Assembly: GCA_016195665.1 (NCBI GenBank)
Contig: JACPZD010000038.1
Location: 1 to 46,131 of the forward strand
DNA: 46,131 bases
From: Gammaproteobacteria bacterium
GTDB taxonomy: Bacteria > Pseudomonadota > Gammaproteobacteria > SURF-13
Reading direction: 5' to 3'
The notes under the pieces were generated by a model. It had not been told where the DNA came from, made no database searches, and saw only the letters and a program-made list of their open reading frames with translations. Every line of letters starts with the position of its first letter. Within the stretch, counting starts at the first letter, position 1. The position numbers were made by a program, and so were the translations under genes. Below are positions 2,020-46,131 of the stretch, piece by piece.

Positions 2020-2391
2020 ATGCAATCCAAGGATAGCTGCGGCGACCCTGAGCGGCGTGAGCCGCGTAACATGCTTTCCCTCGGCGCCGAAAAAATCCGG
2101 GACCCGGCGCGCATCATCACCATGCTGGCCCACATCGAACAGGATCACCCTGCTCACCGTCGCCCTTCCGGGTTCCGACAGCCTTTATAACAGCGCCCTG
2201 CTCGGGGTCAGCCGTGATACTGGCAGCTTACTCCTGGATGAACTACATCCGCACATCGGCCACCTGCAACTCCAAGTGGTGCAACGCGCCGGTTTATCGG
2301 CCTTACCCCTGTCCACCGCAAAGGTATTAAACGCTTCGTCGCCGGCCTCGACCGGGAATTATGTAAAAAGCTGATGAAGTATTACTCATAA
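2020..2391 (+). pseudogene. ycgR: ycgR (PilZ flagellar brake) remnant: frameshifted, with the middle deleted
   Basis: Translation from ATG 2020 gives MQSKDSCGDPERREPRNMLS through RIITMLAHIEQDH. The frame is then lost near 2150, and a second frame carries LLTVALPGSDSLYNSALLGV through GSLLLDELHPHIG. This is the N-terminal YcgR-type domain that precedes PilZ. Close to 2290-2390 a third frame reads RKGIKRFVAGLDRELCKKL, typical of a YcgR C-terminus. Most of the N domain's end and the c-di-GMP-binding PilZ domain (no RxxxR or DxSxxG seen) are missing. YcgR binds c-di-GMP and slows the motor; this copy cannot. Location after flgN fits ycgR elsewhere. The last-frame stop, TAA at 2389-2391, lies inside repeat A1. 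Confidence 0.7.
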
Positions 2392-2533
2392 GTCAGTAAT
2401 TAAGACTACACTTCATGTTACGTCTCCGCCCCCTATTGAGGGGGCGGGACAGGGTGGGGGTAGAGTAAACAGGGTTTTTACTCAGGAGTCACATTATAAC
2501 GTTGTAGCCTTATTTTCTGACTCCTGAGTAAAA
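2382..2533 (+). repeat. Dispersed structured repeat, family A copy 1
   Basis: This is the reference copy of a family of six. Three hairpins are visible: a small 5' one (TTACT...AGTAA), a GC-rich one (CCGCCCCC...GGGGGCGG), and a 3' one with a perfect 16-bp stem, arms 2476-2491 and 2518-2533. The element's first bases TTACTCATAAGTCA and last bases TGACTCCTGAGTAA form imperfect inverted ends. It matches 45989-46131 with two visible differences. No open frame or transposase is present, so it is MITE- or REP-like. Confidence 0.9.
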
Positions 2534-10075: not shown

Positions 10076-10104
10076 TCACCTCGATAGGCGCAGGACAGGC
10101 CGGC

Positions 10105-10206
10105 GACGCCGCTTTCCTACGCCGGGATTAACCGGATCAGGTTCAAAGGGTTCTCTCAGCCCCGCGCTTTGATCGGATTTCGAGGCGGGGGCACCCCTAG
10201 CTGCAC
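10105..10206 (-). promoter_or_regulatory. TPP riboswitch controlling thiC
   Basis: On the minus strand the Thi-box core reads GGGGCTGAGAGAACCC, with CTGAGA at 10154-10159, followed by TTTGAACCTGATCCGGTTAA and CCGGCGTAGGAA. A GGGGTGCCCCCGCCTCG arm precedes it. This is the complete TPP aptamer, ending about 35 bases before the thiC start. Control is probably at translation initiation or early termination. Confidence 0.95.
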
Positions 10207-10319
10207 TGCCCACCGTAGCTTATAGTACATGCATTTGCAATATGCTTAGACTTGCGTCGCGCCTGCAAAGCCCGTACCCTTTTGCGTTGCGATTTTTGGA
10301 TCCTGAATAGGTAGCAACG

Positions 10320-10973: not shown

Positions 10974-11098
10974 GGCATCTCTGATTTATTCGTGCTGAAC
11001 CGCCAAGAACGCCAAAATTTTTCCTTACAATTCAAGCTTTTTTTCTTGGTGATCTTGGCGCCTTGGCGGTTGGCGATATATTTTTCAGAGCTTCCTTA
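10971..11098 (+). repeat. Dispersed hairpin repeat, family B copy 2
   Basis: This 128-bp element has the same ends and interior as 973-1107: TAAGGCATCTCTGATTTATTC at the start (first 20 bases match well) and TTTTTCAGAGCTTCCTTA at the end, with an AACCGCCAAG/CTTGGCGGTT hairpin between. One interior unit is shorter than in copy 1. It begins on the stop codon of the methyltransferase gene. Confidence 0.85.
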
Positions 11099-11204: not shown

Positions 11205-11879
11205 GTGTCGCCCCATTCACCCCCGGACCATTCCATAGACGCATCCATCCCGCTTGGCGCGGCGGACGCCACACAGCGCATCTTGGCCACCGCCGAACGG
11301 CTATTCGCCGAGTTGGGTTTTGACGCCGTTTCCATGAACATGATCGCCGAACAGGCCGGCGTGAGCAAAGGCAATATCTTCCATCACTTCGCCTCCAAGG
11401 ATGCCCTCTATCTTACGGTATTGAAATCGGCGTGCGCCGAATCCACCCGCTTGATGGACGACTTGGGGAACATCAACGGCAGCCTGGCTGACCGGCTCGT
11501 GCATTTTACCCAGGCACATCTCGCCCACCTAAAGAAGCATCATCACATTGCAACGCTGATACAGCGTGAGATGTTCGAGGACGGCCCGCGTCGCGGCAAG
11601 GTCCTGGCCGAGCGGGTATGCAGTGAAAATTTCACCCGCCTGGTGGACATGCTGCGCGACGACCGGGCGCGAGGTGAGTTGAGTAAGGATTGCGATCCGG
11701 CCATCATTGCCCATCTGCTGGTGAGCGCGAACATCTTTTTCATGCAGGCCCGCGACATGCTGCGCCACTCGCCCGACCTGGATTTCGCGGAGGACCCGGC
11801 GCGTTACAGCCGCAAGGTCGTCGAGGTCATCCTCACGGGAGTGCAGGAATCAAAAACGTACTATGAAGAAACAAAGTAA
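11205..11879 (+). CDS. TetR/AcrR-family transcriptional regulator of the RND pump
   Basis: The 224-residue product has a disordered start, then a helix-turn-helix domain: TQRILATAERLFAELGFDAV, NMIAEQAGVSKGNIFHHF and ASKDALY, about residues 24-75. A helical ligand-binding domain follows, with the TetR C-terminal pattern including HLLVSANIFFMQARDML. The GTG at 11205 is used; AAGG lies nine bases upstream. It precedes the adaptor-permease-TolC genes on the same strand and has a palindromic operator in its own promoter, so it probably represses the pump and itself. Odd: the last residues (YYEETK, then TAA) are encoded by one arm of a perfect 24-bp palindrome belonging to repeat A6. Confidence 0.9.
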   Translation: MSPHSPPDHSIDASIPLGAADATQRILATAERLFAELGFDAVSMNMIAEQAGVSKGNIFHHFASKDALYLTVLKSACAESTRLMDDLGNINGSLADRLVHFTQAHLAHLKKHHHIATLIQREMFEDGPRRGKVLAERVCSENFTRLVDMLRDDRARGELSKDCDPAIIAHLLVSANIFFMQARDMLRHSPDLDFAEDPARYSRKVVEVILTGVQESKTYYEETK

Positions 11880-12010
11880 GCGGACATCGCTTACTTTGTT
11901 TCTTCATAGTAAAAACCCTGTTTTACTTACCCCCACCCTGTCTCTCCCCCTAGACAGGGGGAGTGAACGTATAGGAAAGTGTCGTCTTACTAATGAACTT
12001 CTTAGTAACT
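11859..12010 (-). repeat. Dispersed structured repeat, family A copy 6 (variant arms)
   Basis: Read on the minus strand this copy has the family order: a 5' hairpin with TTACTAAGAAG, a GC-rich hairpin (CTCCCCCT...AGGGGGAG), the conserved ACAGGGTGGGGGTAAGTAAA and AACAGGGTTTTTACT stretches, and a 3' hairpin. The 3' stem is a perfect 24-bp inverted repeat, arms 11859-11882 and 11888-11911, loop GACAT. Its sequence is unlike the ACTCAGGAGTCA stem of other copies and equals the 3' end of the tetR frame. Length is again 152. Confidence 0.8.
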
Positions 12011-21832: not shown

Positions 21833-22062
21833 TTACTCATAAGTCAATAAATAAGTCTACACTTCCCGCTATGTTCCCGCCCCCTATGTAGGGGGGTGAG
21901 GCAGCAAAGCTGCCGAACGGGTGCACAAGGATGTGCACCCTGGACTTTTGCGCGGCGCAGGAAGCATAGCGCAAAAGACAGGGTGGGGATAGGTAAAAAG
22001 GGTATTTACTCAGGAGTCACATCATAAGGATTGTAATCTGATTTTGCGACTCCTGAGTAAAT
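21833..22062 (+). repeat. Dispersed structured repeat, family A copy 2, with a nested insertion
   Basis: This fills most of the 337-base gap between the divergent hldE and the next GT9 gene. The family ends and 3' hairpin (arms with TTTACTCAGGAGTC and GACTCCTGAGTAAA) are present. Between the GC-rich hairpin and ACAGGGTGGGG there are about 78 extra bases (roughly 21896-21977) with three perfect hairpins: GGCAGC/GCTGCC, GGGTGCAC/GTGCACCC and CTTTTGCGC/GCGCAAAAG. Copy 2 is closest to copy 3 at its 5' end (CACTTCCCGCTA). Confidence 0.85.
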
Positions 22063-27280: not shown

Positions 27281-27346
27281 TTCTTTTATTTTGAATATGT
27301 GCGTATAGGCAAGTGAAGTATAATTCGCTAAATCGCTTCAGCGAAA

Positions 27347-27498
27347 TACTCATAAGTCAATAAGTAACGCTACACTTCCCGCTAAGTCCCCGCCCCCTAT
27401 GTAGGGGGCGGGACAGGGTGGGGGTAGGTAAAACAGGGTATTTACTCAGGAGTCACATCATAAGCAGTGTTGCCTTACTTTGTGACTCCTGAGTAAAT
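27347..27498 (+). repeat. Dispersed structured repeat, family A copy 3
   Basis: This copy lies in the 253-base gap between the divergent ligase and GT9 genes. It has the family's ACTCATAAGTCAATAAGTAA start, the CCCCGCCCCC/GGGGGCGGGG-type hairpin, ACAGGGTGGGGGTAGGTAAA, and a 3' hairpin whose 18-bp stem starts ATTTACTCAGGAGTCACA. It is most similar to copy 2. It begins directly after an AAATCGCTTCAGCGAAA stretch that itself contains a small hairpin. Confidence 0.9.
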
Positions 27499-34562: not shown

Positions 34563-34680
34563 CCATAAATAATTTACCGCAGAGGACGCAGAGTAATACC
34601 CTCAAGAAGGGTTTTTTCTCCTCCGCGCCCTCCGTGGTGAAGCCTTTTCATCGCAAGAGACACAGGGGAACTATTTATGG
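34563..34680 (+). repeat. Dispersed hairpin repeat, family C copy 2
   Basis: This occupies most of the 194-base gap upstream of waaF. The core (34565-34644) matches 2536-2616 in the opposite orientation: ACCGCAGAGGACGCAGAG, ATACCCTCAAGAAGGGT, then CTCCTCCGCGCCCTCCGTGG. The outer bases CCATAAATA (34563-34571) and TATTTATGG (34672-34680) are perfect 9-bp inverted repeats, which may mark the element's ends. No gene is seen here. Confidence 0.75.
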
Positions 34681-34952: not shown

Positions 34953-35104
34953 CCCACTCAGGAGCCACAAAGTAAGGATACACCGCCGACCGGGTGTCTC
35001 CTGAGTAAAAACCCTGTTAACTCTACCCCCACCCTGTCCCGCCCCCTGAACAGGGGGCGGGAACGGGTCGGAGAGTGTAGACTTAATGATGAACTCATTA
35101 GTAA
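34953..35104 (-). repeat. Dispersed structured repeat, family A copy 5
   Basis: Read on the minus strand this 152-bp copy has TTACTAATGAGTTCATCATT at the 5' end, a GC-rich hairpin (TCCCGCCCCCTG...AGGGGGCGGGA), ACAGGGTGGGGGTAGAGTTA, AACAGGGTTTTTACTCAGGA and a 3' hairpin with ACTCAGGAG/CTCCTGAGT arms and a changed loop. The stop codon of ilvE (35098-35100) lies inside its first seven bases. The other end is 11 bases before the zinc-finger start codon. Confidence 0.85.
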
Positions 35105-45988: not shown

Positions 45989-46131
45989 TTACTCATAAGT
46001 CAGTAATTAAGACTACACTTCATGCTACGTCTCCGCCCCCTATTGAGGGGGCGGGACAGGGTGGGGGTAGAGTAAACAGGGTTTTTACTCAGGAGTCACA
46101 TTATAACGTTGTAGCCTTGTTTTCTGACTCC
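45989..46131 (+). repeat. Dispersed structured repeat, family A copy 4 (cut by window end)
   Basis: It starts TTACTCATAAGTCAGTAATT and runs to the window's last base in the 3' hairpin arm (CTGACTCC). By eye it differs from copy 1 (2382-2533) at two positions in 143: GTTA to GCTA and TTATT to TTGTT. That closeness, across 43 kb, points to recent spread or gene conversion. The last 9 bases of the element are outside the window. Confidence 0.9.

Follow-up and report, generated by a model that had tools for sequence, protein, structure and literature searches.

A probable TA-inserting MITE family with a REP-like centre in a gammaproteobacterial draft genome

The features tabulated for TA-terminal MITEs are inverted repeats, TA termini, target duplication, a length of 100–200 bp and a strong fold (PMC2229807). 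Correia/NEMIS, ERIC/IRU/RU-1 and RUP are of the same size class as the element described here and share its inverted-repeat ends, terminal 5'-TA-3' and duplication; Correia/NEMIS, ERIC and RUP also resemble it in being intergenic, strongly folded and without a transposase, and Correia, like the element, has a short form and a long one, the latter with an internal insert (PMC2229807). However, the sequence of the element was unrelated to those of Correia, ERIC and RUP, and its ends were not paired end-to-end; an internal third repeat paired with the right end, and a G-rich hairpin stood separately in the centre. It departs from TA-terminal MITEs in its three-copy end arrangement, in having a REP-like centre and in its exchangeable insert.

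Caulobacter CIR repeats have, like the element, a two-arm fold and no single end-to-end stem; they carry a GANTC motif and lack the usual terminal inverted repeats, and the likeness noted here is one of fold (PMC2229807). REP/REPIN repeats (BIME-type) are 20–60 bp long, stand alone or in inverted pairs, and have neither the terminal repeats nor the 3' hairpin of the element; neither of the REP definitions GTAG and CGTC-1 to CGTC-4 (PMC3733652) clearly fits its module. QMITE2 of Coxiella burnetii is a gammaproteobacterial MITE of about 190 bp with inverted repeats of 23–29 bp, its truncated copies resemble REPs, and its direct repeats are 7–9 bp, whereas those of the element are 2 bp (PMC10969869). 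Within a known type, the TA-type MITE, the element forms a new family, unusual chiefly for a centre that resembles a different class of bacterial repeat and adopts conserved hairpins. Uncultivated Gammaproteobacteria gain with it a MITE family whose ends and target duplication are resolved.

Copies in the window, the genome and its relatives

The window, a stretch of 46,131 nt, is contig C38 of a draft MAG (G000; 2.38 Mb, 41 contigs). A sequence-only reading had described six copies of a fixed-length, hairpin-rich, MITE-like repeat there, and all six were present at the places and on the strands given. Copy 1 (subfamily A', 2382–2531, plus strand) reads TTA-CTCATAAGTCA ... TGACTCCTGAG-TAA, has its TA dinucleotides at 2383–2384 and 2529–2530, and was near-identical to about 11 other copies of the genome. 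Copy 2 (21833–22060, or to 22062 in wider bounds, plus strand) is a long variant with a structured insert. Copy 3 (27346–27496, plus strand; TA at 27347–27348 and 27494–27495) belongs to subfamily A and is the best full-length example. Copy 4 (45989–46131, plus strand), of subfamily A', is cut by the contig end; as had been noted, it differs from copy 1 at two positions (99% identity over 143 nt). Copy 5 (34954–35104, minus strand) is of an intermediate subfamily, and copy 6 (11858–12008, minus strand), of subfamily B, has the ends TTACTAAGAAGTTCA / TTTGTTTCTTCATAGTA. Pairwise identity among the window copies ranged from about 74% to 99%. The statement that all copies share one motif stands apart from copy 2, which reads ACAGGGTGGGGATA, one base off.

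A covariance model built on 28 of the genome's full copies recovered 6/6 window copies (107–181 bits, E 1e-20 to 1e-37). Searches gave about 54 copies in the genome; 50 were extracted and at least four more were found. Further copies lay at C12:7259 (with insert), C31:8587 (a deletion form) and C40:80336, and a remnant at C28:17854. Full copies were about 143–154 nt long without the insert and about 230 nt with it. Folding against shuffled sequences gave z = -7.4 for the plus strand and z = -9.4 for the minus strand. Because of the roughly 54 genome copies and a fold 7–9 SD below shuffles, the repeat is not a chance occurrence.

Subfamily A is marked by TTACTCATAAGTCA, and subfamily B, which includes window copy 6, by TTACTAAGAAGTTCA. 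Subfamily A', to which window copies 1 and 4 belong, comprised about 12 near-identical copies in the genome and is a recent burst. According to simple ORF calls, the 50 extracted copies lay between co-directional (25), convergent (12) and divergent (10) genes, inside an ORF (1) or at edges (2). Relative to the co-directional genes, 11 copies had the same and 14 the opposite orientation, which is no preference. Copies thus stand in all gene configurations and in no preferred orientation, which speaks against their having a dedicated role in transcripts that read through them. At its length, the element has no coding capacity for a transposase.

The element was also found in four genomes of the same family and in one genome from another family of the class, so that the search of genome and relatives proposed in the sequence-only reading yielded more copies in both. 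A pattern scan for the central G tract in 84,980 species genomes showed the whole element in gammaproteobacterial MAGs (G001, G005, Chromatiaceae, Ectothiorhodospiraceae and others). Searches of plasmid, phage and viral-contig collections gave no match to the element; one viral contig matched the REP-like core only. Rfam gave nothing at threshold for the element, only sub-threshold chance matches to microRNAs, and a literature search with the core and end sequences returned only unrelated matches to human genes.

Hairpins, REP-like module and insert

The 3' hairpin has as its 5' arm a third copy of the terminal repeat, which lies inside the element. In copy 3 (27441–27496, plus strand) this copy, TTTACTCAGGAGTCAC, pairs with the right terminal repeat, GTGACTCCTGAGTAAA. 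The 5' arm was 85% identical to the right end, compared with 67% between the left and right ends (15 positions, in a slightly offset comparison). Alignment of 103 distinct copies from several genomes, including loci fetched by a pattern within the central G tract, showed that 15/15 pairs of the hairpin had a double change in at least one sequence. The two arms change together and form a near-perfect palindrome.

The central G-rich hairpin, the REP-like module, lies in copy 3 at 27371–27427 (plus strand) and reads ACACTTCCCGCTAAGTCCCCGCCCCC TATG TAGGGGGCGGGACAGGGTGGGGGTA. RAYT-mobilised REPs carry an unpaired GTAG or CGTC tag at one end of the palindrome; in the element, ACGTC stands before the central stem and is partly paired, GTAG occurs in subfamily A only, and GTAAG in B. 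Among the genome's own copies, which had been found by similarity and not by the G-tract pattern, the G arm had 3 changes in 476 cells and the C arm 45 in 470, and 37/45 of the latter were transitions. Counted on a tree, the C arm had 29 transition and 8 transversion events, and the unpaired C/T columns had 50 and 51 (p = 0.003). A folding plus strand that tolerates G-U (or G-T) pairs would be expected to leave such a pattern on the C arm. The almost unchanged G arm and tail, with a C arm that drifts within pairing, suggest folding of the plus strand, either as RNA or as single-stranded DNA; a strand-specific constraint of this kind is not needed by a plain MITE. The covariation of hairpin bases noticed earlier was thus real, carried mainly by the 3' hairpin, while the GC-rich hairpin changed mostly on one side (C<->T). 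The two constraints are unusually clearly split, with a symmetric 3' palindrome as the signature of a DNA end and a fixed-G central hairpin as that of a strand-specific fold.

A G-quadruplex was rejected as the sole cause of the conserved G strand: its motif was present in 41/50 copies and missing from the copies with the insert, and it would also leave the pairing-preserving drift of the C arm unexplained.

The central hairpin and its GACAGGGTGGGGGTA tail matched REP/REPIN repeats of Devosia, Rhizobiales and Gallionella (83–96% over 21–41 nt). Devosia, a Rhizobiales MAG and other alphaproteobacteria carried the core only, in REPIN-like inverted pairs, and Gallionella also carried the core only. 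A 61-nt unit from Devosia matched its own genome 74 times, often as close inverted pairs, the Rhizobiales genome 12 times and Gallionella 9 times. In G000 it had 40 matches, nearly all within MITE copies, and a standalone REP of similar type was located at C37:104702. Homology of the REP module is likely; it falls short of proof because the G-tract scan itself selected for the core. REP-like modules within a transposon-like element bear on the spread of those REPs that lack a known transposase.

The insert of copy 2 (21895–21977, plus strand) is an 83-nt module of three hairpins, and its second loop, ACAAGGATGT, resembles a CsrA site. Seven MITE-borne and two diverged copies of the insert were found in G000, and homologues in G001, G003 and G005. 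The long form of the element folds into a multi-branched junction, with the central stem closing it. In the second hairpin of the insert, the stem was replaced between genomes with compensation, and the GGA of the loop was kept in 12/12 homologues; their loops read ACARGGATGT, CAGGACG or CACGGACG. The CsrA motifs are CAGGA(U/A/C)G and RUACARGGAUGU in a hairpin loop (PMC7652899), and the insert loop fits this consensus as a putative site. Its stem is longer than those of most SELEX ligands. A csrA gene is present in the genome, and no genome-wide enrichment of GGA-loop hairpins was seen. The CsrA-site-like hairpin repeat was observed both inside MITEs and free-standing (window 21895–21977; L252, L253, L254, L259). 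A second kind of insert, AGCCTGCCCCCGGCTTGAACGGGGG, occupied the same element position at loci L165, L107 and L210 of G001/G005.

A speculative reading, to which we give a small chance, is a mosaic: a TA-type MITE acquired a REP module, some copies also took up a CsrA-site hairpin, and transposition would spread plus-strand RNA structures and CsrA-binding sites. If this is true, selection would act both on the DNA ends and on the transcript.

Ends, target site and mode of movement

The terminal inverted repeat of the element is about 23 bp long and imperfect, with the consensus TTACTCATAAGTCAATAAGTAAG on the left and TTACTCAGGAGTCACAAAGTAAG on the right (reversed); in copy 3 the left repeat is ATACTCATAAGTCAATAAGTAAC (27346–27368, plus strand). 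The short ends first proposed (TTACTCA..AGTCA) were correctly taken for inverted repeats, and are better described as this longer imperfect repeat with a third, internal copy.

Comparison of empty and filled sites, also suggested in the sequence-only reading, was carried out between the relatives G001 (JAQBXX) and G005 (JAURVQ), which are about 90% identical, and showed insertion polymorphism with a 2-bp duplication. In each of the nine filled/empty pairs, the empty site consisted of the left flank, 2 bp and the right flank. The dinucleotide of the empty site was TA at five loci (one of them, L213, clear at the left junction only), TG at one, GA at two and CA at one. At the TG locus, the filled site reads GGTGTAGT-TG-CTCATAAG...CCTGAG-TG-GTTGCG and the empty site GGTGTAGG-TG-GTTG, and both element ends at the filled site are also TG; since TG lies outside the family consensus, this locus is best read as a true duplication. 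The GA or CA in 3/9 empty sites, where the filled site has TA, is explicable by the local divergence of about 10–20%. Over the genome's own copies the direct-repeat statistic was weak (z 2.3, the best of many tests), and conservation of TA at the ends alone is indistinguishable from membership in the terminal repeat.

Duplication of TA is the mark of enzymes of the Tc1/mariner-IS630 type and of a small number of further DDE groups. The Y1 enzymes (IS200/IS605/RAYT) are not known to make a target duplication. With a probability of about 0.8, the element is a TA-inserting MITE that encodes no proteins, has imperfect inverted-repeat ends of about 23 bp and is moved in trans by a DDE transposase, the enzyme that its TA-type MITE anatomy implies. 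Copies insert at TA, rarely TG, and duplicate the dinucleotide; the ends would be recognised by an enzyme of the Tc1/mariner-IS630-like or another TA-duplicating family, and this helper may have been lost, left unassembled or become too divergent for recognition. The third terminal repeat, inside the element, makes the 3' hairpin, which is conserved as a near-perfect palindrome, and some copies carry an exchangeable structured insert within the REP-like central module.

Nine Y1 (PF01797) genes were found in G000, and 0/9 had the element or its ends at their flanks; these carried other repeats, such as GGGGTCAGGCC inverted repeats. Some of the genes resembled those of TIRYTs: their GGGGTCAG, like the GGGGTCAGGCC inverted repeats, fits GGGGWSAS, the motif given for TIRYTs (PMC3733652). 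RAYT/TIRYT-type transposases at L188, L189 and L191 were flanked by GGGTCAAGTCTTGAC or GGGGTCAGGCCTTAC repeats. An IS630 partner was rejected, as the sole DDE_3 gene of G000 (L205) has the ends TAAACATGACG, which do not match the element; three DDE_Tnp_1 genes in G000 and several rve genes across the family were likewise without element ends. The IS or RAYT gene with element-like ends sought after the sequence-only reading was thus not found among the Y1 genes of G000, a draft MAG, or the DDE_3, DDE_Tnp_1 and rve genes of G000 and relatives. No autonomous copies, with terminal repeats a transposon length apart, were found in the fetched loci or among the G000 and G001 matches listed. Many accepted MITE families are likewise without a known helper.

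The RAYT-like system proposed from the sequence alone belongs to a wider alternative, a REP/REPIN-like element moved through a single-strand intermediate by RAYT or another IS200/IS605-type Y1 enzyme, with the hairpins as recognition structures. The REP/REPIN matches in Devosia (74), Rhizobiales and Gallionella, the nine Y1 genes, the strong covarying 3' hairpin, the strand asymmetry of the central hairpin and the absence of strong direct repeats among the genome's own copies all speak for it; nevertheless, the element has two-ended inverted repeats, its empty sites show a 2-bp target duplication that includes a duplicated TG, and the Y1 genes carry other flanking repeats. The RAYT reading fails on the duplication and these flanking repeats, and Y1 movement as a whole is unlikely. 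Dispersal, by duplication, of a conserved gene for a structured RNA or of a family of regulatory RNAs would account for fold z-scores of -7 to -9, the 15 compensated pairs and the pairing-preserving C-arm drift, but not for exact dinucleotide insertion with empty sites in relatives; the neighbourhood is not conserved (25 unidirectional, 12 convergent and 10 divergent; 11 same and 14 opposite) and Rfam has no family at threshold, which makes this reading very improbable.

Several near-identical A' copies lack 8–30 terminal bases. Such a loss is unexpected for end-dependent transposition, and assembly error is likely in some copies. The window contig end (46131) and a 3'-cut copy (G000 C36:103208) stop at the same element base (CTGACTCC), which suggests assembly joins as the origin of some truncated A' copies. 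Target-directed or retro-type movement, for example of a reverse-transcribed RNA, would make the copies without 5' or 3' ends its incomplete products; truncations occur at both ends, however, complete copies have paired inverted-repeat ends, and the C36 truncation points to assembly, so this reading is hardly credible.

Neighbouring repeats and other features

Another intergenic repeat of about 90 bp (CGCCAAGAACGCCAAGACTTTTCC...TTCAGAGCTTCCTTA) was found in the window at 1011–1107 and 11001–11098 (93–95% identical), and it also adjoins the MITE remnant at C28:17854. An inverted pair of a further repeat (CCGCAGAGGACGCAGAG type, 92%) lies at 2561–2613 and 34565–34617, and this type also stands beside the MITE copies at C36:103067 and C28:70348. 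The ends of contigs C6, C24, C27 and C35 (L197–L200) share a sequence of about 140 bp followed by attC-like GTTAGGC/GTTAGCC, possibly representing several integron attI/attC junctions. A TPP riboswitch aptamer (Rfam RF00059, 67 bits) was located in the window at 10097–10208 on the minus strand.
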